DNA from: a virus | DNA: 61,623 nt | Direction: 5' to 3' (one strand) | IMG/VR virus record: IMGVR_UViG_3300036795_000110 | Span: 1 to 61,623 of that record | Shown: piece after piece, positions 22,157 to 48,881 of the stretch | Layout of the letters: every line of letters begins with the position of its first letter | Position numbering within the stretch: the first letter of the stretch is position 1 | Notes under the pieces: generated by a model | Database searches by the model: none | Seen by the model: the letters and a program-made list of their open reading frames with translations, nothing else | Told to the model about the DNA's origin: nothing | Position numbers and translations under genes: made by a program

Positions 22157-22336
22157 TCATTGTACCGGCACGAGCCGGGACAGGACCAGCGCGTCATCCT
22201 GCAAATGGGCCAGGTCGGCCTCGTTGGCCGGGTCGGCGGCCAGCTCGTTTACCCGCTCCAGCGCCACCCGCGCGCTGCCCTTGTCCTCGAACGCCTCGTC
22301 GACCAGCCGGTCGGCCTCGTCCGTAGCTGTACTCAC
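22157..22336 (-). CDS. Small helical protein (59 aa)
   Basis: A GTG start (22334-22336) overlaps the MuF-protein stop and follows a GGAGGAGGAG ribosome site. The product (VSTATDEADRLVDEAFEDKG ... ALERVNELAADPAN) is an acidic helical hairpin. No family is recognised; it is probably an assembly factor. Confidence 0.6.
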   Translation of the reverse strand: MSTATDEADRLVDEAFEDKGSARVALERVNELAADPANEADLAHLQDDALVLSRLVPVQ

Positions 22337-25300
22337 TTCTCCTCCTCCGAGTACCTGCTCACGTACTGCATCGCGGATTCCCACGCCTCGATGGTCTCGC
22401 CCTCGCCGCCCAGGCTCTTGGTCGTGGCGGTCCAGGACCGGGTGATCGCGCCGGCGATGACCCGCTGGGCCTGAGCGTCGTCCGGGTTGTTCATCCCGGC
22501 GGCCCGCATGATCTGCTTGGCCATCGTCGGGGCCTTGCCCGCCGGTCCCTCCCGGTTGATCTCGTCGGCTAGCTCGCGCATCCGGGTAGTTGTGTTGTTG
22601 CCCTCGGCCGAAGCCACCTTAGAAACCCAGCTCATGGCGGCCTGGGTAGCCCCGGTGTAGTGGCCCCACGACAGGCCCGAATCGATCGCATGGAGCGTAC
22701 TCCGGCCGCGGGCATACTCCTCGGCTGTCATGCTCGGGGCATTACCGAACCCAAGGTAGTGGTCTCCGATGCCGATCTTCTGGAAGAACTCCGGCGCGTG
22801 GTAGGTGGCGCCTAGCTCGGTGAACCCCTCCTCGATCGCGGCCCCGGCCGGGTTCTGGTACGCCTCCGTGTTGTCGTTCTGCCCGTCACTGCCCCAGTCC
22901 TTGAAGCCCTGGGCATGGATCAACTCGTGCAGGATGGTAACCGGGCCGCGCAGGTCCGAGCTGGCCACCCGCCCTTGTCGGGTTCCGCCTCCGGTCCCGC
23001 TGACCGCCCGGACCAGGTGCTTGGCCACGTCCTCCCGGACCTGCATCACGTTGTCCCAGCCCATCCGGGCCAGGATCGCCGCGTTGCCCTTCTCCGGTAT
23101 GACCCGGACCGACTTTATCCCGGGCGCGTCCCGCGCGCCCAGCAGGCCGGGAACGATGTCCTGGGCCTTGGCCACCAGATCGGACAGCGTGCCCGCCGTA
23201 GTGCCCTTGCGCTCGGCCTCGTGCTTGGCCTGGGCCTCCAGCGCCATGGGCTTTAGCGCGTCCCACGCCTTGGCGTAGTCGCCCTCCGGGTCGCGCTCCA
23301 CCACCGAGGGCATCATCGCCACCGGCAGCGGGTGCATGTCCATCGAGGTGTCGTCGGAGTCGGTGTAGGTGGCCATGATCTGGGGCTCGTGACCTGGCCT
23401 GGTGATCAGGCTGAACCGGGACTCGTCGTGCTTGCTGTCCGCGCTGATCCACAGGTTTACGCCGTAGAACGCCTTCGGATCGGTGGTAAGGGCAGCCTGG
23501 CGCCCGTCCGGCAGCTTGTACAGGTGATGGGTCTGCGGCAGCCTGCGCTGGAACGGCGACCCGTAGCCGCTACCGACCGGCTTACTGGTGACCTCGAAGC
23601 TGTGCTCGGACCCGGTCCTGAACCGGACCGTTGCCCGGGTGCCCTCGTTGTTGATCCCGGTGACCTCGCCCTTGCCGTTGCCCTTGGCCGGGTGGCTGAC
23701 CGCCTGGCCGATCGTGGGGATGCCGACGAAGATCCACCCGTGAATGTAGCCCTTGGGGCCGACCTTGACCAGGCTGGGCTGCACCACTTTAGCCACGGTG
23801 GCCTGCTGCCTGGCCTCCGCAAAGTTAGCCATCAGCGCCTGGTACCACTCGGACCGCTTGCTCTGGGCGAACTCGGGCTCCAGCGCCCGCAGGCCCTGCT
23901 CCCACTTGGCCCACTGGGCCGCGCTCCATCGGGCGCCGGACCGCTCAAGTTCCTTGCGGAACGGGCCGGTAGAAGATAGTGGGGGAGCGGTATACCGGGC
24001 GTGGCTGTGATCGATCGGCACCGGCTGGCCGTCCTCGGCAACCATCCAGTTACCATCGGCCCGGTCGGTGTTGCGGGTTAGTTTGTCCAGCAGTCCGATT
24101 CTTTCCCCGGCCGCCGATTTGGTGTACTTTTGCAGCCCTGGCTCGTTGATCTTGTAGCTATCGACCCCCAGGTCCACATTCGACTTGCCACGGACCACGG
24201 GCTGCCACAGCTTACCGCCCTTGACTAGGACGTGAGGAGCGCCGGCGCCGATCACGTCGGACACCCGGGAGGCCAGAACCTCCGCGTCGCGGTTGGTCTT
24301 GTCGCCGCTCTTGCGAATCCACTCGCTGCCGTCGTTGAACTTTACCCGGGCGGTGGCGTGGGTGGTCTTGCCGCCGGCCTCCTCGCTGGCGATCCCCGAC
24401 TTGTGGGCCGCGTCCAGGACGTGAGCAGCGTTCCCTCCGGGCGCACCCACGAAGACCCACCCGTGGATGTAGCCGTGCGGGCCGACCTTGGTCACCATAC
24501 CACCAGTCAACCCGGCAGTTGTCTCCTTGTCAACGCGGGCCGCCGCGGTCGAGGCCGGGTCGGAGCTGGTCCGCTGGTAGACGTGGGTCTGCAGCACGGC
24601 AGGAACGTCGGCATAGGCCACCTTGCCCACCCACGCGGGCAGCGGGACCCCGGCATCCCGGGCGGCCAGAGCACGGTGGTGCCCGTCCACGTCCAGGAGC
24701 TGCTCGCCCGGCCCGCCCTTGGTCGGCAGGTCGGCCAGTACCGCGGGCTTGACCTTCTCGCCGTCCCGGAACTTGTCCGCGAACCGGCCGACCTTGCCGG
24801 GCTGGTGGCTGGCCGCCCACGAGTCCATATCGTCGTGGTCGATCTCGTCCCACGTCACGCCGCGCGGGCCGCTCCACTCCGCCCGCAGCACCCACTCGAT
24901 CGATCCGGGCGGGTAGTTCTCCAGCAGTTGCTCGTAGACCTTCTGGGCGGTCTTGTCGGACTTGAACATGCTCGGTCGTTGCAGTGCGGCAACTACGCGC
25001 GGTAGGTCGGTGGCCAGCTCGGGCCGCAGGGGCTCCTGGTGGGCGATCTCGTCCGGCAGCACCCACGCCAGGGCCTCGTGGTGGGTACCGTCCGGATCGT
25101 CCACCTCATCCCTATCGCCGGTCGACATGCAGTGCTCGTTCGCCACGTCCATGATGAACGCCCGGTAAACGCCGTTGGAGCTGGTCCAGCCCGGCCGCGG
25201 GATACCGCCCGGCAGCAGCTTACCGACCTCCTCCTGCCATTCGCGGACGGCAGCCACGATGACCAGTTCCCCGGGCTCCAGGGTCCCGCCGGGGAACTCC

Positions 25301-26280
25301 CAGCAGCCGGGCGCCTTGTCGCCGTCCTCCTCGGACCGCTTGATCATCAGCACCCGGCCCGTGTCGGCCGCGCGCAGCACGACACCGGCCGCCACCACGC
25401 CGGCCTTCTGGATACTGGTAAGACGCATCGGCGGGATACCGGATTCCGGCAGGTCGTCCGGCAGGACCGCACAGCGGCAGGGGCCGGGGTGGGCCGGGGG
25501 GGCTACCACGCCGGAATCGAACAGTCCGCCGATGGGGATGATGCCCTGCTCCTGGTTGGCCATACAGACCGGGCACACCCGCTCGTCGTGGGCGGTACTC
25601 CAGCGCTTGCCCTCCTGGTTGGCCTCCCGGTACGCACCGAGGGCGGCCAGCGAGGTCGCACGGTTCAGCTCGGTCGAGGCGATCATGTAGTCGCGGGACG
25701 GGTTGTCCAGGATGGGCCGGATATTCTCCGCGATCTCGTCGGCCGACGAGCCGCTGTCAAACCCGGCCGCCAGCTGGTCGGCCAGCTGCCGCATCCGGGT
25801 ATCCGCGATCGACTTGATGGTCTGGATACCGTAGGTGTCGAGCATCTGCTGGAGGCCGTCGCCCGCCACCAGGCGGGCCGCGTCCACGTCGCCGGGCTGC
25901 CAGTGGTCCCAGAACGTGGAGTCGTAGGCCGAATCGACCATCTCCTTACCCGCCTCGCGGCCGACCGCAAACCCCTCGGTCCACAGGTTGGCCAGGATGC
26001 GGTGCAGGGCCTGGGTTACCACGTTGGCGATGCCGCGCGCCACCAGCCAGCCCCACGCAGCCGGGTTCGGCATGGCCGACTTCTCGACCGCCCCGGACGG
26101 GACCGACTCCAGCCACAGGCGGGCCAGGTCGAGCGGCTCGACCTGGGCCAGCGAGCGGGTCAGCTGCTCGCCGTAGATCCGGGCTAGCTGCTGGTCGTGC
26201 CGCCACCCGGACCAGGGCCGCGCAGAGGAGCCGTCGCTGCTGTGCTGCCACTGGTCCAGGGCCTCGGCCAGCGCGATCAT
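22333..26280 (-). CDS. Giant MuF-type head protein with Nudix, ParB-like, kinase-like and zincin modules
   Basis: A 1315-residue protein; the ATG overlaps the portal stop (ATGA). Residues about 120-275 are MuF-like (RDYMIASTELNRATSLAALG, CPVC ... HPGPCRC). Residues about 290-430 are a Nudix hydrolase with an intact box (G-T-L-E-P-G-E then REWQEEVG). Residues about 460-575 look ParB/sulfiredoxin-like (LLDVDGHHRALAARDAG). After motif KVGPHGYIHGW (598) residues about 610-830 look like an atypical HipA/PI4K-type kinase (GSEWIRKSGDK, LTRNTDRADGNW, VPIDHSHA). After KVGPKGYIHGW (839) a beta-rich part leads to a zincin with HELIH (about 1117) and EEGFTE (about 1149). Typical MuF proteins are a few hundred residues. 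Such proteins are packaged and injected, so these modules are probably virion effectors. The enzyme calls rest on motifs only. Confidence 0.75.
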   Translation of the reverse strand: MIALAEALDQWQHSSDGSSARPWSGWRHDQQLARIYGEQLTRSLAQVEPLDLARLWLESVPSGAVEKSAMPNPAAWGWLVARGIANVVTQALHRILANLWTEGFAVGREAGKEMVDSAYDSTFWDHWQPGDVDAARLVAGDGLQQMLDTYGIQTIKSIADTRMRQLADQLAAGFDSGSSADEIAENIRPILDNPSRDYMIASTELNRATSLAALGAYREANQEGKRWSTAHDERVCPVCMANQEQGIIPIGGLFDSGVVAPPAHPGPCRCAVLPDDLPESGIPPMRLTSIQKAGVVAAGVVLRAADTGRVLMIKRSEEDGDKAPGCWEFPGGTLEPGELVIVAAVREWQEEVGKLLPGGIPRPGWTSSNGVYRAFIMDVANEHCMSTGDRDEVDDPDGTHHEALAWVLPDEIAHQEPLRPELATDLPRVVAALQRPSMFKSDKTAQKVYEQLLENYPPGSIEWVLRAEWSGPRGVTWDEIDHDDMDSWAASHQPGKVGRFADKFRDGEKVKPAVLADLPTKGGPGEQLLDVDGHHRALAARDAGVPLPAWVGKVAYADVPAVLQTHVYQRTSSDPASTAAARVDKETTAGLTGGMVTKVGPHGYIHGWVFVGAPGGNAAHVLDAAHKSGIASEEAGGKTTHATARVKFNDGSEWIRKSGDKTNRDAEVLASRVSDVIGAGAPHVLVKGGKLWQPVVRGKSNVDLGVDSYKINEPGLQKYTKSAAGERIGLLDKLTRNTDRADGNWMVAEDGQPVPIDHSHARYTAPPLSSTGPFRKELERSGARWSAAQWAKWEQGLRALEPEFAQSKRSEWYQALMANFAEARQQATVAKVVQPSLVKVGPKGYIHGWIFVGIPTIGQAVSHPAKGNGKGEVTGINNEGTRATVRFRTGSEHSFEVTSKPVGSGYGSPFQRRLPQTHHLYKLPDGRQAALTTDPKAFYGVNLWISADSKHDESRFSLITRPGHEPQIMATYTDSDDTSMDMHPLPVAMMPSVVERDPEGDYAKAWDALKPMALEAQAKHEAERKGTTAGTLSDLVAKAQDIVPGLLGARDAPGIKSVRVIPEKGNAAILARMGWDNVMQVREDVAKHLVRAVSGTGGGTRQGRVASSDLRGPVTILHELIHAQGFKDWGSDGQNDNTEAYQNPAGAAIEEGFTELGATYHAPEFFQKIGIGDHYLGFGNAPSMTAEEYARGRSTLHAIDSGLSWGHYTGATQAAMSWVSKVASAEGNNTTTRMRELADEINREGPAGKAPTMAKQIMRAAGMNNPDDAQAQRVIAGAITRSWTATTKSLGGEGETIEAWESAMQYVSRYSEEEK
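23734..23766 (-). repeat. KVGPKGYIHGW motif copy (protein repeat)
   Basis: This codes for KVGPKGYIHGW at about residue 839 of the MuF-type protein, just before the module that ends in the HELIH metallopeptidase-like segment. Confidence 0.85.
24457..24489 (-). repeat. KVGPHGYIHGW motif copy (protein repeat)
   Basis: This codes for KVGPHGYIHGW at about residue 598 of the MuF-type protein, at the border between the ParB-like and the kinase-like modules. Confidence 0.85.
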
Positions 26281-42525: not shown

Positions 42526-42602
42526 CTGGTCCACCTCTCGTACAGGGTCCCGCAGTGGACCAGTGCCACCGCCAGGCACACGAATACCGCTAGTGTTATC
42601 AT
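42522..42602 (-). CDS. Tiny membrane protein (26 aa)
   Basis: MITLAVFVCLAVALVHCGTL, then YERWTR: one hydrophobic helix and a charged end. The ATG overlaps the dUTPase TGA (TGATG) and its TGA overlaps the next GTG, so it is coupled on both sides. Likely real although very short. Confidence 0.55.
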   Translation of the reverse strand: MITLAVFVCLAVALVHCGTLYERWTR

Positions 42603-43477
42603 CAGCCGCTGCTCCCGAATCCGCTTGTCCCACGCTCGCTATAGGGCAGGTCCTCCACCTTGTCCACCTGCTCGATCCGGATCTGGCCCAGCATGTTCGG
42701 CAGCACGATCATCTGCGCTATCCGCGTTCCCGCCGGGATGTGCAGGCAGTCCCCGTCGACCCGGGCTCCGCCCGCCACCTCGGGCACGCCGGACTGATCA
42801 GGCCGGTATACCATCGCCCGCAGTTCACCGCGCCAGCCCTCGTCGATGATGCCCGGCATCACCCACAGGCCCAGCCTGCTCCACGCTGAGGACCGGCCGG
42901 TGATCCAGCCGAACGTGCCCGGTGGCAGCGCCACCGTCACCCCGCACGGCACGTCCTTGCTCTGGCCCGGCCAGATATTCAGGTCCTTCGTGGTGGCCAG
43001 GTCCAGACCGCAGTCCCCCGGGAACGGGGCGGGCGGGAACGCCACCTTGTCCGGGTCGTCCAGCCGGACCGCCTGCAGCACGTTACCGTCCGCTACCCGG
43101 CGGTACTCCCGCCACCATTCCCACGCCCGGTCGCGCCGCACCGCCTCGTCGGCCAGGTCCCGGTCCGTCCGGCTCAGCTTGCGGTTGTCGGTGACCCTGG
43201 GCGGTACGTGGTTGCCGTCGCTGGCCGTCTGCGCCTGGCGCACCGACTCGGAGAACGGGCGGTCGCCCGTGATAGCGGTGGCCAGGTTCCGGATCTGATC
43301 TATCATCGAGCCGGACTTGTAGTGGGTCGCCTCGCGCAGCGACGCGATCAGGCCCCGGGCCAGCCGTTTGTTGTCCGGGGCCACCATCTCCAGCCACTCG
43401 ATCAGCTCCGGGACCAGCTCCGGGCCGCCGTCGAGGGTAACCTGCCAGTGGCCCTGGCCCGTGTCAGTCTTCGTCAT
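42602..43477 (-). CDS. dut: dUTPase-like enzyme with an N-terminal extension
   Basis: A 291-residue protein from the ATG 43475-43477. Residues about 150-291 carry the trimeric dUTPase/dCTP deaminase motifs: GDCGLDLAT (motif 1), TGRSSAWSRLGLWV (motif 2), PGIIDEGWRGELRAMVY (motif 3), AGTRIAQMIVLP (motif 4) and ERGTSGFGSSG (motif 5). It would hydrolyse dUTP to dUMP and keep uracil out of DNA. About 145 residues precede it (ELIEWLEMVAPDNKRLARGL, then SMIDQIRNLATAITG), a helical extension of unknown role. It lies in the nucleotide operon with mazZ and purZ. Confidence 0.85.
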   Translation of the reverse strand: MTKTDTGQGHWQVTLDGGPELVPELIEWLEMVAPDNKRLARGLIASLREATHYKSGSMIDQIRNLATAITGDRPFSESVRQAQTASDGNHVPPRVTDNRKLSRTDRDLADEAVRRDRAWEWWREYRRVADGNVLQAVRLDDPDKVAFPPAPFPGDCGLDLATTKDLNIWPGQSKDVPCGVTVALPPGTFGWITGRSSAWSRLGLWVMPGIIDEGWRGELRAMVYRPDQSGVPEVAGGARVDGDCLHIPAGTRIAQMIVLPNMLGQIRIEQVDKVEDLPYSERGTSGFGSSG

Positions 43478-43742
43478 CGTTGTCCTCAGCACCGTTGGCC
43501 AGCTGCGGGAACATCTGGGCCAGCGGGTGGTCTGCCGGGACCTGGATCGAGCCCAGCACGCCCGGCATCGGCATACCCATTCCTGGCATCAGGCCGGGGC
43601 CGGCGATCTTGGGCGTGGGCACGATACCGGCCCGCTGGCCCAGCCAGAACCATACCCGCTTACGAGCCTCAGGGTCCAGCGTCTCCAGCGTGCTGGCCAT
43701 ATCGAACATGGCCCGGGTCTCGGTCTCGACGGTCGTCTTCAC
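43464..43742 (-). CDS. Small protein, unknown (92 aa)
   Basis: I chose the GTG at 43740-43742, which overlaps the mazZ stop (TAGTG); an ATG at 43784 is possible. VKTTVETETRAMFDMASTLE, then ARKRVWFWLGQRAGIVPTPK, a Met/Pro/Gly tract and an acidic tail. It is coupled to mazZ and dUTPase. Function unknown. Confidence 0.6.
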   Translation of the reverse strand: MKTTVETETRAMFDMASTLETLDPEARKRVWFWLGQRAGIVPTPKIAGPGLMPGMGMPMPGVLGSIQVPADHPLAQMFPQLANGAEDNDDED

Positions 43743-44236
43743 TACATCCACCTTCCGTTGTCCCGGATAAACCGGGCCATCCATGAATATATCCCCAGAT
43801 CGTGCCAGGTATCCTCGCTGGGCTCCCGCCCCTTCTCCCACGCTCCGTACAGGCGCGCGGCCTTGCCCATCGCGTAGAACCCGCACGCCATCTCCAGCCC
43901 GGCCCGTTCGCGCGACTGGTGGTCCAGGTCCGACCCTTCCGGCAGCAGTGCCTCCATCGCCCGGCCCATGATCTTCAGGTCGCTGGCGCCGTACTCGATC
44001 GCCTTCGGCTTGAGCCGGGCCAGGTCCTCCTCGAACTTGGCCCGCAGCCACTTCTCGATCACCGCCCACCGCTCCTCGGCCGGGCTGGCCGCATCCGTCT
44101 TGGCTAGCCGGTGGTCGCAGCGGTTCTCCGGCCCCCATTCGCCGTATTCGACACCGCACCGGATGCACCGATCGTTGTTGGCCGGCTTCTTGTTGGTCCA
44201 GAGATGGCCTTGCATATCGAACCACTCGTCGCTCAC
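43742..44236 (-). CDS. mazZ: MazZ-type (MazG-like) nucleotide pyrophosphohydrolase
   Basis: A 164-residue protein; GTG start overlapping the purZ stop (GTGA). N-terminal CIRCGVEYGEWGPENRCDH looks like a zinc unit. Residues about 75-164 have the all-alpha MazG-like pattern of phage MazZ: KPKAIEYGASDLKIMGRAM, ERAGLEMACGFYAMGKAARL, then PSEDTWHDLGIYSWMARFI with acidic residues spaced to bind metal. Known MazZ enzymes convert dGTP (and GTP) to dGMP, the substrate of PurZ. The tight coupling purZ-mazZ supports that role in 2-aminoadenine synthesis. A general MazG-type house-cleaning function is the alternative. Confidence 0.8.
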   Translation of the reverse strand: MSDEWFDMQGHLWTNKKPANNDRCIRCGVEYGEWGPENRCDHRLAKTDAASPAEERWAVIEKWLRAKFEEDLARLKPKAIEYGASDLKIMGRAMEALLPEGSDLDHQSRERAGLEMACGFYAMGKAARLYGAWEKGREPSEDTWHDLGIYSWMARFIRDNGRWM

Positions 44237-45528
44237 TGGTGCCTCAGATCGATGAAGGAGGACGGGCCGGTACCGACGATGCCGATGGAGCAGCCCAGGT
44301 CGTACTCGGTCCGGGTGACCAGCTGGGTGAACCGGTCCCGGGTCTCCCCGCTGAGGTGGTCCAGGCTGGTCGCCCCGGCCGCCATCGGGACCGCGTGGTC
44401 GGCCATCGTAAGCGCGGCGCGGACCGGGCTGGCCGCCGGATCCCCGTAGCGGGGTCCGCCGTTCGCCAGGATGGCCTCGCGGGCCAGCGGGGCCTCCCAG
44501 TGGCCGACCCTCCGCACCTTGCGGGTAACGGTGGTCAGTTCCTGCGGCAGGCCCAGCTCCTCCCACGTCGTCTCGTCCATCAGCGGGCCGCTGTTCCCGG
44601 CTACGCGGATCGGGTAGGCACGGAATACCACCCACACCTCCAGCCGGGCTCCGCTGGTCCACGGGCTGATTCCGGCCATCGACAGCATGTCGATCGCGGT
44701 ACAGTCCGAGGAGGTGCACTGGGGATACTGCCCGGCATGGATGCCCAGGCCGTAGCCCTGGGTGCCCTCGACCAGGACCGCCCGCTGCCCGTCGATATAC
44801 GACCTGATGTGCATCATGGTGTCGGTGACGGTGAACCGGGCACCGATCCAGTTGTGATCGCGGGCCAGCCGGGCATCGCGCATCGTCCGGGCCGCGCGGG
44901 CCGCTCCCACGCCCTTACCGGTAGAGCCGATCCGCTCGGTGAGGCCGGGCAGGCCGGCCGGGTTCTCCCGGACCACGTGGATGGGCTCGATTATGGTGGC
45001 CTGCCGGTCGACGATCAGCCGCTCGCTGGCGTTGTAGCCCGCCTTGTCGAGCTGGTCGCACTCGCGCATCAGCAGGTCGGGCTCGATCTCGCTGCCCTGG
45101 GCGATGACCAGGGACTCGTCCGGGCTGCTGACCGCAGCCACGGGCACCTGCTGCAGGCGCCACGGGTGCTGGTGCGACGGGTGGACCTCGCCCTTGAAGT
45201 CTGCCAGCATTTCCGCCGGCTGGAGGCTGGCGCAGTCGGGATGGCACCTGCCCAGGACGGTGTGGCCCGCGTTGGGGCCGGCCACCCGGATGGACATCCC
45301 ACGCTGGTGCTCCGCGGCCAGGTAGCTGGCCACCGCCCCCTTGCCCTCGGACCCGTACTGGCCGCCGACCACTACCTGGAGTCTGCCCACTGGCCCATCC
45401 TCGATCCCTAGGTACTCGAACCGCATACCGTCCGGTAGCGGCATCAGCCTGTTCAGCCGGTCATTCACTGAGGCCACGCGCAGGGGGAGCACGTAGCGCT
45501 CCCAGAAACGCTGCTCGCTTGCCGTCAT
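44233..45528 (-). CDS. purZ: PurZ-type adenylosuccinate synthetase (2-aminoadenine pathway)
   Basis: A 431-residue member of the adenylosuccinate synthetase family. The P-loop-like VVVGGQYGSEGKG ends at residue 64, GPNAGHT follows at 84-90, and RIGSTGKGVGAARAAR, VLVEGTQGYGLGIHAG and SGARLEVWVVFRAYPIRVAG NSGP (split here) mark later motifs. Cellular PurA has GDEGKG; here the catalytic Asp is Ser (GSEGKG), as expected for phage PurZ, which joins Asp to dGMP on the way to dZMP. About 48 residues precede the P-loop, more than in PurA. The gene has its own dyad promoter with the ATG 6 nt after the -10. Confidence 0.85.
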   Translation of the reverse strand: MTASEQRFWERYVLPLRVASVNDRLNRLMPLPDGMRFEYLGIEDGPVGRLQVVVGGQYGSEGKGAVASYLAAEHQRGMSIRVAGPNAGHTVLGRCHPDCASLQPAEMLADFKGEVHPSHQHPWRLQQVPVAAVSSPDESLVIAQGSEIEPDLLMRECDQLDKAGYNASERLIVDRQATIIEPIHVVRENPAGLPGLTERIGSTGKGVGAARAARTMRDARLARDHNWIGARFTVTDTMMHIRSYIDGQRAVLVEGTQGYGLGIHAGQYPQCTSSDCTAIDMLSMAGISPWTSGARLEVWVVFRAYPIRVAGNSGPLMDETTWEELGLPQELTTVTRKVRRVGHWEAPLAREAILANGGPRYGDPAASPVRAALTMADHAVPMAAGATSLDHLSGETRDRFTQLVTRTEYDLGCSIGIVGTGPSSFIDLRHQ

Positions 45529-45534
45529 GGGGGG

Positions 45535-45564
45535 AGCCTAGCGGGGTCCTTGTCCGGGTGTCAA
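45535..45564 (-). promoter_or_regulatory. Dyad promoter/operator of purZ
   Basis: TTGACACCCGGACAA (45550-45564) and TAGGCT (45535-45540) with 18-nt spacing on the minus strand. CCCCCC and then the purZ ATG follow, so the transcript should begin at or next to the start codon. Confidence 0.8.
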
Positions 45565-45836
45565 TCCAGGGGGCGGAACGCCAGGATGACGATCATCCCG
45601 CCGCAGTGGGTGCACATCGCCAGCCTGGCCCGGACGTACTCTATAACCCGCGGGCGGCATTCGGCACAGATCGGCTTGACGTCCGCGCAGTAGCAGCGCA
45701 GGCACTGGCTGTCCATATAGAAGTCGGCCAGGTTATCGCACTCGACCAGGCCCCGGTCCCCGACCAGCCACTTCATCTCGCAGAAGCGGGGATCGCCGGT
45801 CGAGGGTTGCGAACCGTACACCATGTGCCGAAGCAT
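45561..45836 (-). CDS. Zinc-ribbon-like protein, unknown (91 aa)
   Basis: I chose the ATG at 45834-45836 (MLRHMVYGSQPSTGDPRFCE), where coding-type base use begins; an ATG at 45896 would add 20 residues. It holds CLRCYCADVKPICAECRPR and a final CTHCGG pair, enough cysteines for two zinc sites. It overlaps the RuvC-like gene by about 100 bp in another frame. Function unknown. Confidence 0.6.
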   Translation of the reverse strand: MLRHMVYGSQPSTGDPRFCEMKWLVGDRGLVECDNLADFYMDSQCLRCYCADVKPICAECRPRVIEYVRARLAMCTHCGGMIVILAFRPLD

Positions 45837-46311
45837 CTCGTCGGTGGGGTTTTCCTGGGAGATCGAAGTCTGGTCCTCGGTAAGCGAACCGGCCACTTCC
45901 CAGCCTCCTATCCTTCATCCGGAACCCTATTTTAGCCGCCTGAGCGCGGCCCTCTTTAAGGTTACCCTTGGGGTCCTGCAGGTAGACGGGCACGTCGACC
46001 CGGGAGGCGATGTACTTCACGACTCCCACGCACTGGGCGGTGGGGAACTCGCTGAACCCCTGCTCCCGGGCCATCCACGGGTAGAGCGCAAACCTCTCGA
46101 GTATTATCGCGCTGAGGTCCCGGGCGTGGTGCTCCAGCCACCCGTACAGGTCGGAGGGGTGGACCGTCATGGCCGCCATCAGCTGGATCTTGCCCAGCCG
46201 GGAGCAGTCGATCGCATCCGAGTAGCGGATACGCGGGAAGTCGTTTAGTTTGAACTCCGCCAGGCCGCACCACACGTCGCCCGGGTCGATGGCCGCGATC
46301 CGCCAGCTCAC
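45733..46311 (-). CDS. RuvC-like Holliday junction resolvase
   Basis: A 192-residue protein; GTG start overlapping the previous stop (GTGA). The RNase H-like fold is marked by WRIAAIDPGDVWCGLA (first Asp), AIILERFALYPW (catalytic Glu), and near the end GPDFDLPGKPHRRDASAHG (final His/Asp pair). It would cut branched DNA from recombination and replication. The last ~25 residues run over the following zinc-protein gene and have atypical codon use, so the functional protein probably ends soon after AHG. Confidence 0.75.
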   Translation of the reverse strand: MSWRIAAIDPGDVWCGLAEFKLNDFPRIRYSDAIDCSRLGKIQLMAAMTVHPSDLYGWLEHHARDLSAIILERFALYPWMAREQGFSEFPTAQCVGVVKYIASRVDVPVYLQDPKGNLKEGRAQAAKIGFRMKDRRLGSGRFAYRGPDFDLPGKPHRRDASAHGVRFATLDRRSPLLRDEVAGRGPGPGRVR

Positions 46312-46448
46312 GGGTACTCCCACTTGCGCCAGCCGGTGTGGCGGAACCCGGCGCGCTTAAGACGGCGGACCTCGATCGGCCAGGTAACGAAGTCCAGGAG
46401 GCGCCAGTACCACTCGCAGCCCGGACCGGGGGGCATCGCCCTGTCCAT
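46308..46448 (-). CDS. Small basic protein (46 aa)
   Basis: The ATG overlaps the polymerase stop (TGATG), and its TGA overlaps the RuvC-like start. MDRAMPPGPGCEWYWRLLDF, then VTWPIEVRRLKRAGFRHTGW. It is coupled on both sides and probably belongs to the replication operon. Function unknown. Confidence 0.6.
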   Translation of the reverse strand: MDRAMPPGPGCEWYWRLLDFVTWPIEVRRLKRAGFRHTGWRKWEYP

Positions 46449-48451
46449 CAGGCGGCCAGCCTGGCCGCGGTGGCGCCGAACGGCTTGACGTCGGCCTTGA
46501 ACGGGACGGGGCGGAACATCCGCTCGAAGGTACGGACCAGGATGGCCCGCATCGCCGCGGTAACCTGTTCCACGTCCTCGATGGGGATGCGGGCAACCAG
46601 GGAGTCGTGGATCTGCAGCATCAGGAGGCCGGGGTAGGCCCGGTCGAAGGTGTTCATGGCCTCCTTCATCGCCTCGGCCACGTCGCCCTGGACGCGCTGG
46701 TTGAACGCCTTGTGGACCGGCTCGTAGTCCGAGAACCGGCGCACCCGGCCGGTGGTGAGGCGGACAAAGCCCTGGGTGGTGGCCATGTCGGCATAGTCGT
46801 ACAGGGCCTGCTTGAACCGGGGGAAGACGCCCTTCCAGTCGTCGATCCAGCCCCGGGTCTGGTCCTGGGAGACCTCCCGGCCGGTGAACTTGAGGATCTG
46901 GGTGCGCAGGCCGCCGGCGCCGATGCCGTACAGGATGCCGAGATTGCACCGCTTGGCGACCTGGCGGTACTCCTCCCACGCCGGGTCGGATTTCAGGGCG
47001 GCAATGTCGGTCTCCCCGTCGTAGAACATCAGGGCGCAGGCCGCGTCGTGCGAGTCGGTGCCGGACTTCAGGGCGCGCAGCATGGCGGACTCGCGGGCCA
47101 CGGCAGTGGCTACGCGGATCTCGGCCTGGGAAACGTCGGCCTCCCAGTCCTGGAACCCGGAATCGGGCGGCTCCCCGATGAAGTTGCGGATCGGCTCCAG
47201 GCCGGAGGGTATCTGGTAATCGTGCGGCAGGGCCTGGGCCTGCCAGCGCTCGACCGACAGCCGGCCGCTTACCACGTGGGCCTGGCGGTGGACGGTACGT
47301 ATCCGGCCATCGGTCCCGGTGAGGGCCTGGTAGGGGGCATACCACTTGGAGCGGGCAGACTGGAGTTCGGCGTAGTCGGCATACTCCTGGGCTCCGGCGA
47401 CCCCACGCTTGACCAGGCGGGCGATTACCTCCTCGTCGACCTGCGGGCGCTTGGTGGCGGTTAGCTTGTCGTTGTAGGGCAGGAGCCCCTGGCCGCCCTC
47501 CGAGGGCGGGCCGAAGAAATACTTGACCGCGCCAGGAGGGGTGGGCTTGCCGTTGCCGCCCTTGAAGGGCACCGCGTGGGCGGCCTCGGTGATCAGCTTG
47601 ACCAGCTTGCGCTCCTCGTCGCGGCAGCCCGCGACATCGAAGCCGACCGCGCGCAGCTCCATGTAATAGAGAGTCTGGGCCAGGCGCAGCTCGTCCTGGA
47701 TGTGCTTCCATGTGGGGGAGGACTGGTCCAGGCGGGCATGGTTGTGCTCGGCCAGGAGGAGGGTAAGGACCGCGTCGGTGCGGGAGTACGGGCCGAGGAT
47801 GGACCAGGGGATCAGGTCGAACCGGGGGTCGGTGCGGGGACCCTTCCAGGGGGCCAGGGCCTCGGCCTCGTCGGCCTCGGCGCCGTCCTCGATCCCGATC
47901 TGGGCACCGAGGTGCAGACGGACAGAAGTGGGCTTGAGGGAGGTCGGTTCGCCCGGGTCCAGGACCGATTGGGCCAGCTGGGTGTCCCAGTGGGTGATGG
48001 GCATCAGGTCGATCGCCCCGCCGTCCCAGGGCTGGGTTCCCACGTCGGTGGTGTAGCGAGCGTCCGGGCGGCCACGCTGGCCGGCGCAGAACATCAGGCA
48101 ATCGTATTTCTTGTGGTGCATCGTGAGGTACTGGCGGGACAGCCAGCGGAGGAGATGGTCCCACGCTGCGGGGGAGCGGTTGGGGGCGGTGAGGTGGGCG
48201 GCCTCCCACTTGGTAATTCGCTTATGGTGGGAGACCGGGAGGACCTTGGGGCCGAGGGGGAGGGGAGCAGCGGGCTGGCCGACTGCGCCACAGATGCCCT
48301 GGTCGAAGGGGGTGGCAAAGGACTGGATGTCGCCATCGGAGTCGCGCCAGGCGCAGGAGACCGCGGAGATTCTGGCGCCGTCGTCGGCGTACAGGCCGGA
48401 ACCTTCGGTGTCGCAGGCTACGGAGAGGCCGGAAACGTCAGGCAGTCGCAC
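46448..48451 (-). CDS. Family A DNA polymerase (DpoZ candidate)
   Basis: A 667-residue replicative polymerase from the GTG at 48449-48451, overlapping the HAD gene by 14 bp. A 3'-5' exonuclease domain has ACDTEGSGLY (about 14), HHKKYDCLMF and YSRTDAVLTLLL. The polymerase domain has motif A DVSQAEIRVAT (about 436), motif B RQVAKRCNLGILYGIGAGGL (about 495) and motif C QIHDSLV (about 611), where the usual HDE reads HDS. Phages with purZ often carry a family A polymerase (DpoZ) that prefers dZTP over dATP, and this gene lies 1 kb from purZ. Whether it selects Z cannot be read from motifs. Confidence 0.88.
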   Translation of the reverse strand: MRLPDVSGLSVACDTEGSGLYADDGARISAVSCAWRDSDGDIQSFATPFDQGICGAVGQPAAPLPLGPKVLPVSHHKRITKWEAAHLTAPNRSPAAWDHLLRWLSRQYLTMHHKKYDCLMFCAGQRGRPDARYTTDVGTQPWDGGAIDLMPITHWDTQLAQSVLDPGEPTSLKPTSVRLHLGAQIGIEDGAEADEAEALAPWKGPRTDPRFDLIPWSILGPYSRTDAVLTLLLAEHNHARLDQSSPTWKHIQDELRLAQTLYYMELRAVGFDVAGCRDEERKLVKLITEAAHAVPFKGGNGKPTPPGAVKYFFGPPSEGGQGLLPYNDKLTATKRPQVDEEVIARLVKRGVAGAQEYADYAELQSARSKWYAPYQALTGTDGRIRTVHRQAHVVSGRLSVERWQAQALPHDYQIPSGLEPIRNFIGEPPDSGFQDWEADVSQAEIRVATAVARESAMLRALKSGTDSHDAACALMFYDGETDIAALKSDPAWEEYRQVAKRCNLGILYGIGAGGLRTQILKFTGREVSQDQTRGWIDDWKGVFPRFKQALYDYADMATTQGFVRLTTGRVRRFSDYEPVHKAFNQRVQGDVAEAMKEAMNTFDRAYPGLLMLQIHDSLVARIPIEDVEQVTAAMRAILVRTFERMFRPVPFKADVKPFGATAARLAA

Positions 48452-48881
48452 GGCGGGGGACCTCCTGGCCGGGGAAGGGGACATTCCAGCCGTCCGGGTC
48501 GGTGGCCAGGAGATCGACCAGGCCGAGGGTCTCGGACCAGTGGTTGATGCCGTAGCGGTGGTGGATGGCGCGGTCGTCGATGTAGGCGACGGCAGCAATC
48601 TTGCGGTTGGTGAGGAGGATGGTGCGGCCATCGGGTCCGCCGTCCCAGAACGAGCGGGAGCAGTCCGAGTCGACCAGGATGGGGAAGTGGCACTCGTCCA
48701 GGGCCTCGTGGACCGGGCCGAGGGGGCGGGTGGTGACGATGGCTACCGCGTAGCCCTTGTCGTGCAGGCCGCGGATGCCGGAGGTATCGATCGAGCCGTA
48801 GATCAGGCCGCCGTTCCAGCCCTTCTCGTACGAATGAACCACGCCGTCGAAGTCGACGGAGACGCAGGGGCGGTAGGTCAA
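48438..48881 (-). CDS. HAD-superfamily phosphatase
   Basis: A 147-residue protein with a TTG start after GAGAGGACCCC. It has VSVDFDGVVHSYEKG (motif I with nucleophile Asp), VAIVTTRPLG (motif II) and AVAYIDDRAIHH (motif IV), a small HAD hydrolase without a large cap. It would remove phosphate from a nucleotide or nucleic acid end. Adjacent to polymerase and upstream of purZ, it may serve nucleotide supply, for example by dephosphorylating monophosphates, but the substrate is unknown. Confidence 0.75.
   Translation of the reverse strand: MTYRPCVSVDFDGVVHSYEKGWNGGLIYGSIDTSGIRGLHDKGYAVAIVTTRPLGPVHEALDECHFPILVDSDCSRSFWDGGPDGRTILLTNRKIAAVAYIDDRAIHHRYGINHWSETLGLVDLLATDPDGWNVPFPGQEVPRRATA

Follow-up and report, generated by a model that had tools for sequence, protein, structure and literature searches.

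Gene clusters for exchanging adenine for 2-aminoadenine (Z) in DNA have been described in several phages. Those of S-2L, phiVC8 and SH-Ab 15497 combine a true PurZ, with Asn or Gln at the place of Asp343 (numbering of the synthetase described below), with MazZ and DatZ. The less-studied PurZ0 version was the subject of a 2026 biochemical study (PMC12884076), in which all 98 PurZ0 genomes studied carry dutZ and 85 of those also dmtZ. DutZ of Gordonia phage Ghobes and of Arthrobacter phage Wayne converts dATP and dGTP to the monophosphates, an activity known for these two proteins only, and the DUF5664 protein of Wayne hydrolyses the same two nucleotides (PMC12884076). The locus analysed here belongs to the IMG/VR virus record IMGVR_UViG_3300036795_000110, whose whole stretch of 61,623 nucleotides (61.6 kb) is referred to as the window. 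It comprises, all on the minus strand, genes for a family A DNA polymerase, a PurZ0-type synthetase (purZ0), a companion protein encoded directly downstream of it and a candidate DutZ. This is the known gene set for swapping adenine for 2-aminoadenine, in its PurZ0 version, in an uncultured tailed phage. The best reading of the locus, to which a probability of roughly 0.8 is given on the basis of homology, is a PurZ0-type pathway in a phage with a Z genome.

In the Gordonia phages Ghobes and Archimedes and the Streptomyces phages Galactica and Hiyaa the genes follow one another as in the window: Polymerase I, PurZ0, immediately after it the companion family, and DutZ. Their PurZ proteins are 40–47% identical to that of the window by tblastn. 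In addition they have a PurB-like lyase and DmtZ, the latter either on its own or fused to DutZ; both are missing from the window. The DmtZ-less set of the window (polymerase, PurZ0, companion and Dut) is found in Microbacterium phage Goodman, Curtobacterium phage Parvaparticeps and Micrococcus phage Olihed, whose PurZ0 and polymerase belong to other subclades; the Dut of Goodman, unlike that of the window, is devoid of a long N-terminal extension. Wayne has PurZ0, polymerase and Dut domain as in the window, but DUF5664 takes the place of the companion and DmtZ is fused to DutZ. The nearest kin are four IMG/VR contigs (L010–L013, e.g. IMGVR_UViG_3300032898_000005), with 53–56% PurZ identity, which share the gene order with a RuvC-like gene, the lack of DmtZ and the changes in the Dut motifs, but not the small open reading frame (ORF) between companion and Dut. 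A PurZ homologue and the chemical goal are common to the window and the S-2L, phiVC8 and SH-Ab 15497 clusters, whereas MazZ and DatZ are absent from the window.

The synthetase, the polymerase and the dUTPase-fold protein

The purZ0 gene (44233–45426, minus strand) starts at the ATG at 45426, with an alternative in-frame ATG upstream at 45528, and its product is predicted to be a succino-2-amino-deoxyadenylate synthetase of the GTP-using PurZ0 type. The protein scores 312.9 bits against the NCBIfam PurZ model NF038379 (curated cut-off 300) and matches Pfam PF00709 (1e-37) and PHROG 1211, '2-aminooxy adenylosuccinate synthetase' (1.8e-77); the cellular PurA models were not passed. Of the solved proteins 7vf6 comes closest, and the sequence aligned from it matches Archimedes PurZ. 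The initial annotation had recognised an adenylosuccinate synthetase homologue with a GSEGKG P-loop at this place, and NF038379 identifies it as a genuine PurZ. In a maximum likelihood tree of 105 sequences, a phylogeny against PurA and PurZ that had been proposed as a check, the protein is placed inside a clade with eight PurZ0 references and 32 metagenomic phage sequences (Shimodaira–Hasegawa-like approximate likelihood ratio test, SH-aLRT, 98), with L011–L013 as its sister (97). Cellular PurA and the PurZ of S-2L, phiVC8 and SH-Ab stand apart from this clade.

A closer view of the nucleotide-binding residues supports this placement in PurZ0. The P-loop region reads VVVGGQYGSEGKG, and Ser26 of its GSEGKG motif is found in 86/86 PurZ0, where 9/9 of the cellular PurA compared have Asp. 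Asp343 aligns with the guanine-pocket Asp of PurA and is equally kept in 86/86 PurZ0 of the alignment, this place being Asn or Gln in the three PurZ references (phiVC8, S-2L and SH-Ab). In PurA the guanine-pocket Asp is tied to the use of GTP. Since Asp343 is kept, PurZ0 biochemistry with GTP as phosphate donor is predicted for the window protein; Tong et al. are said to have reported in 2023 that PurZ0 uses GTP. One sentence of PMC12884076 gives the nucleotide preferences of PurZ and PurZ0 the opposite way round. The GSEGKG motif alone is weak evidence for Z and was rejected as sufficient because bacterial PurA paralogues share it, so that the claim of Z-DNA is carried by the tree placement and the cassette.

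Profiles built from known PurZ0 phages were scanned over 80 metagenomic PurZ0 loci, for whose detection an alignment query was needed, the locus search with a single PurZ protein having given none. The companion matches in all 80 and Dut in 76. At least 1.5 kb of downstream sequence is available for 74 of them; 63 of these have companion, DmtZ and Dut, and nine, including L010–L013, have companion and Dut without DmtZ. The gene order of the window's cassette is common to about 80 independent loci and this, together with the family E-values, excludes chance. The window contains no NDT domain (PF05014) and no match to the DmtZ profile, DmtZ being likewise absent from L010–L013. No DatZ domain (PF12917 or PF13023; YfbR/HD, HD_3) is seen in the window either, as first annotated. 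PurZ0 phages normally have no DatZ, and this absence is the rule for the lineage rather than a gap because they use DutZ instead of DatZ and MazZ. With the PurZ cut-off passed, the PurZ0 clade at 98 and a cassette like that of the nearest kin, the Z genome originally predicted for this phage is well supported by homology.

The polymerase gene (46448–48451, minus strand; PF00476, 3.4e-34) starts with a GTG at 48451, the end coordinate of the feature as initially annotated, and ends 1,021 bases before the start of purZ0, in agreement with the family A polymerase with exonuclease described 1 kb upstream of the synthetase. The protein keeps the motifs of the 3'-5' exonuclease (DTE and Y-x3-D) and the polymerase motifs A, B and C. 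It is found inside the clade of PurZ0-linked polymerases (SH-aLRT 100), with L210–L213, and is thereby assigned to the DpoZ lineage; the name DpoZ given to it at first holds for the lineage, but not for the score with the curated DpoZ model (see below).

The dutZ candidate (42602–43477, minus strand; PF00692, 2.3e-18) encodes a dUTPase-fold enzyme with an N-terminal extension of ~130 residues. Motifs 1, 3 and 5 read PGDCGLDL, IIDEGWRGEL and RGTSGFGSSG, respectively, and the protein groups in the tree with the PurZ0-linked dUTPases (SH-aLRT 91, not starred). In its subclade, motif 1 has residues of the PGDCGLDL type (Cys) and motif 3 has Trp instead of Tyr, this Trp also appearing in a few other PurZ0 loci. 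The extension, for which a single-sequence AlphaFold model reached a predicted local distance difference test (pLDDT) value of only 36, was considered as a DmtZ and rejected, as it is unrelated to DmtZ and gives no match to its profile. Judged from these data, the 'dUTPase' is a DutZ homologue, a modified dUTPase that would probably do the job first given to a MazG-type enzyme. The proposal that a HAD phosphatase and a dUTPase could be extra members of the pathway stands for the dUTPase, through its grouping; the HAD-like gene is simply present.

The companion gene

The gene directly downstream of purZ0 (43742–44236, minus strand) encodes a helical protein of 164 residues with a Cys-rich N-terminal segment. 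It starts with a GTG that overlaps the purZ0 stop codon as GTGA, a coupling correctly read in the initial annotation. The companion overlaps or abuts purZ0 in nearly all loci and adjoins it in 74/74 metagenomic loci with at least 1.5 kb downstream. In the phage collection, tblastn found it in 31 records (Microbacterium 18, Gordonia 6, Streptomyces 5, Parvaparticeps and Olihed); the numbers equal those of PurZ records in the three genera, compared as counts per genus, and in Parvaparticeps and Olihed PurZ is next door. Residues K78, Y82, G83, G91, K125, R128, D142, D146 and Y150 are invariant, and E115 is present in 40/41 homologues.

The AlphaFold model is confident (pLDDT 89) and shows four helices. 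The fold has no match in the PDB at E<0.3, with one poor HisE match at rank 45. Against viral predicted structures, the Archimedes and Ghobes homologues of the companion are among the best matches; DUF6378 and nucleotide-modification-associated proteins come next, with weak similarity. Searches of Pfam, PHROGs, NCBIfam and PDB sequences gave no credible match; PHROG 474 'phosphofructokinase' (best 0.0019), Pfam DUF6378 (0.037) and designed helical proteins were discarded as weak or chance matches. The gene is not discussed in the main text of PMC12884076. It is a strictly conserved, uncharacterised part of an otherwise known kind of pathway.

The gene product is predicted to be a (d)NTP pyrophosphohydrolase supplying dGMP. 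Its position points to a protein unrelated to MazZ that would feed dGMP to PurZ0, most likely by converting dGTP to dGMP. A job equivalent to that of DUF5664 is proposed mainly because the two are repeatedly exchanged at one position. PurZ0 and enough downstream sequence are present in 57 polymerase-seeded loci. The companion occurs in 40 of these and DUF5664 in 14, and the other three (L251, L252 and L270) proved to have DUF5664 by Pfam; in none of the 57 do both occur together, so that they are mutually exclusive at this position. The DUF5664 state needs three changes on the polymerase tree, that is, at least three separate lineages. A single family comprising companion and DUF5664 is unsupported, because the companion profile shows no similarity to a 14-member DUF5664 alignment. 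In addition, PF18909 (DUF5664) is absent from the 41 companion homologues, with positive controls in Wayne, L251, L252 and L270; the PF18909 search of the window alone also gave no match and was uninformative, since no control rang. In L254 (13941–14444), a more divergent PurZ0 is followed directly by an unplaced protein that shows a KGLEYA...SESIESRIRDVVVY pattern and belongs neither to the companion nor to DUF5664; it is possibly a third replacement at this position.

At about even odds, Z-DNA synthesis would have in the companion family a third (d)NTP pyrophosphohydrolase of its own, with an evolutionary origin separate from MazZ-1, MazZ-2/DUF550 and DUF5664 and no kinship to them. It would provide the dGMP of most PurZ0 phages and would have escaped notice for want of a public family model. 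The alternative that survives best, although still unlikely, is that the companion is a partner of PurZ0 (a scaffold, channelling or regulatory subunit) and not a nucleotide-pool enzyme, with DutZ alone managing dATP and dGTP. The nearly constant overlap or contact with purZ0, the lack of database kin and the fact that DutZ already covers both nucleotides fit such a role, but its displacement in at least three lineages by DUF5664, an enzyme acting on dATP and dGTP, speaks against it, and the invariant acidic and basic residues look catalytic. The weak fold similarity to DUF6378 and nucleotide-modification-associated proteins also speaks for an enzyme.

The proposed pathway and its competitors

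In the PurZ0 pathway proposed for the window, DutZ and probably also the companion would cut dATP and dGTP to the monophosphates, which would starve replication of dATP and supply dGMP. PurZ0 would couple aspartate to dGMP, the phosphate donor probably being GTP, and the adenylosuccinate lyase and kinases of the host would complete dZTP. The polymerase of the DpoZ lineage would then copy the genome with Z for A, and such a genome would be shielded from many restriction enzymes. Identities, order, conservation and phylogeny of the genes are shown directly, whereas the enzyme activities, and Z in the virion, are extrapolated from the homologous systems, and the activity of the companion from its position only.

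Several observations weigh against this pathway. The polymerase falls below the cut-offs of the curated DpoZ models (NF038381, 274.9 against 350; NF038380, 47.9 against 500), and its PurZ0-linked clade also holds phages without PurZ, so that the polymerase alone is supportive but not diagnostic. The support for the DutZ grouping is only 91, and since motifs 1 and 3 carry changes specific to the clade (Cys and Trp, respectively), the substrates of this enzyme could differ. No PurB (PF00206) was found in the window and therefore the host must supply adenylosuccinate lyase.

The PurZ-less members of the polymerase clade are the Streptomyces phages Intolerant and Marky and two contigs (L205, L206, L275 and L277 in all). 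No dUTPase was found in the three PurZ-less records tested from this clade, and the Intolerant/Marky lineage possibly reverted from Z to A. A cassette that makes dZTP for a genome only partly substituted, or returned to adenine as this lineage seemingly did, is an improbable explanation of the window. The absence of DmtZ, the altered DutZ motifs of the subclade and the PurZ-less phages in the polymerase clade agree with it; however, all cassette genes are intact here, whereas Intolerant and Marky are devoid of both purZ and dut, and Goodman, Parvaparticeps and Olihed carry the same DmtZ-less gene set.

The PurZ-MazZ-DpoZ type initially assigned to the locus is improbable. In this type the coupled gene would be MazZ, a dGTP pyrophosphohydrolase with the MazG fold and the sole supplier of PurZ, and the dUTPase would have no special role. 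A helical protein tightly coupled to purZ as in S-2L mazZ, a function of MazG type suited to the pathway and the DUF5664 that other PurZ0 phages have in this position count in its favour. Nevertheless, no MazG domain (PF03819) was found in the window and no MazG-family Pfam match in the 41 companion homologues. Profile comparisons (hhalign) with S-2L MazZ, phiVC8 p26 (MazZ-1/MazZ-2), SH-Ab DUF550-DUF5664, Wayne DUF5664 and an actinophage MazG protein remained at <1% probability, against 99.5% for the Ghobes companion homologue used as positive control. The conserved residues of the companion differ from the MazZ set E35/E38/E50/E53, its fold has no significant PDB match, and the window Dut groups with DutZ. 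The label 'MazG-like', alone among those of the initial annotation, is left with no database support, and the correct description of the locus, whose synthetase is PurZ0, is PurZ0-companion-DutZ-polymerase. A chromosomal-type PurA paralogue unrelated to Z-DNA, suggested by the GSEGKG paralogue found beside normal PurA in many bacterial genomes, is hardly credible, since the protein belongs to the phage PurZ0 clade (98), outside the bacterial groups, and comes with a full phage cassette.

Neighbouring genes, phage and significance

Between polymerase and purZ0 lies a gene (45733–46323, minus strand; PHROG 5202, 1.8e-5) whose product is RuvC/RNase H-like by eye. Relatives occupy the same place in L010–L013 (182–220 bits) and weaker ones occur in many other PurZ0 loci. 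Where the gene ends on the 3' side is uncertain, as its frame overlaps the next ORF. A small cysteine-containing ORF (45561–45896, minus strand) with no function assigned lies directly upstream of purZ0. The HAD-like phosphatase gene (48438–48881, minus strand; PHROG 1238, 1.9e-11, HAD models weak) is upstream of the polymerase gene and overlaps it, and is found at the same place in L010. An ORF of 92 residues (43464–43742, minus strand) overlaps both companion and dutZ and is not at this place in L010–L013.

Genes for a tail tape measure, portal, head-morphogenesis and terminase proteins in the window identify a tailed phage. No close match to the 24-kb part bearing the cassette (38000–61623) is present in 50,697 phage records. 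The G+C content of 66–70% and the hosts of cultured PurZ0 phages point to an actinobacterium as the probable host. Elsewhere in the window (22333–26280) a protein of 1315 residues joins a MuF-type head-morphogenesis domain, a NUDIX hydrolase domain and a long C-terminal part with no assignment; the adjoining portal protein has 1280 residues, with portal similarity confined to about the first 500. Outside the window, a contig binned as a Verrucomicrobia metagenome-assembled genome (L090) is probably viral, because it carries the full set of PurZ0, companion, DmtZ and DutZ.

The GSEGKG paralogue of PurA is chromosomal, beside normal PurA, in many bacterial and archaeal genomes (L091–L169; 10/10 checked). 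A relative of a dCTP-deaminase-like protein is encoded beside the paralogue, as a rule immediately downstream, in 50/79 of these loci; an RNase H-like/AAA gene or a deoxynucleoside kinase lies close by in others. None of the defence-system models covers the paralogue or the deaminase-like gene; a cellular pathway of purine deoxynucleotides is possible at these loci.

With the window, the phages for which a genome written with Z for A is predicted gain a new uncultured lineage, and the assignment of the enzymes responsible is corrected. A complete PurZ0 pathway would be useful for rebuilding Z-DNA in bacteria, and the companion gene, which is as tightly tied to PurZ0 as DutZ, has so far had neither name nor model. 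If the activity proposed for it is true, Z phages would have recruited yet another unrelated protein for dGMP.

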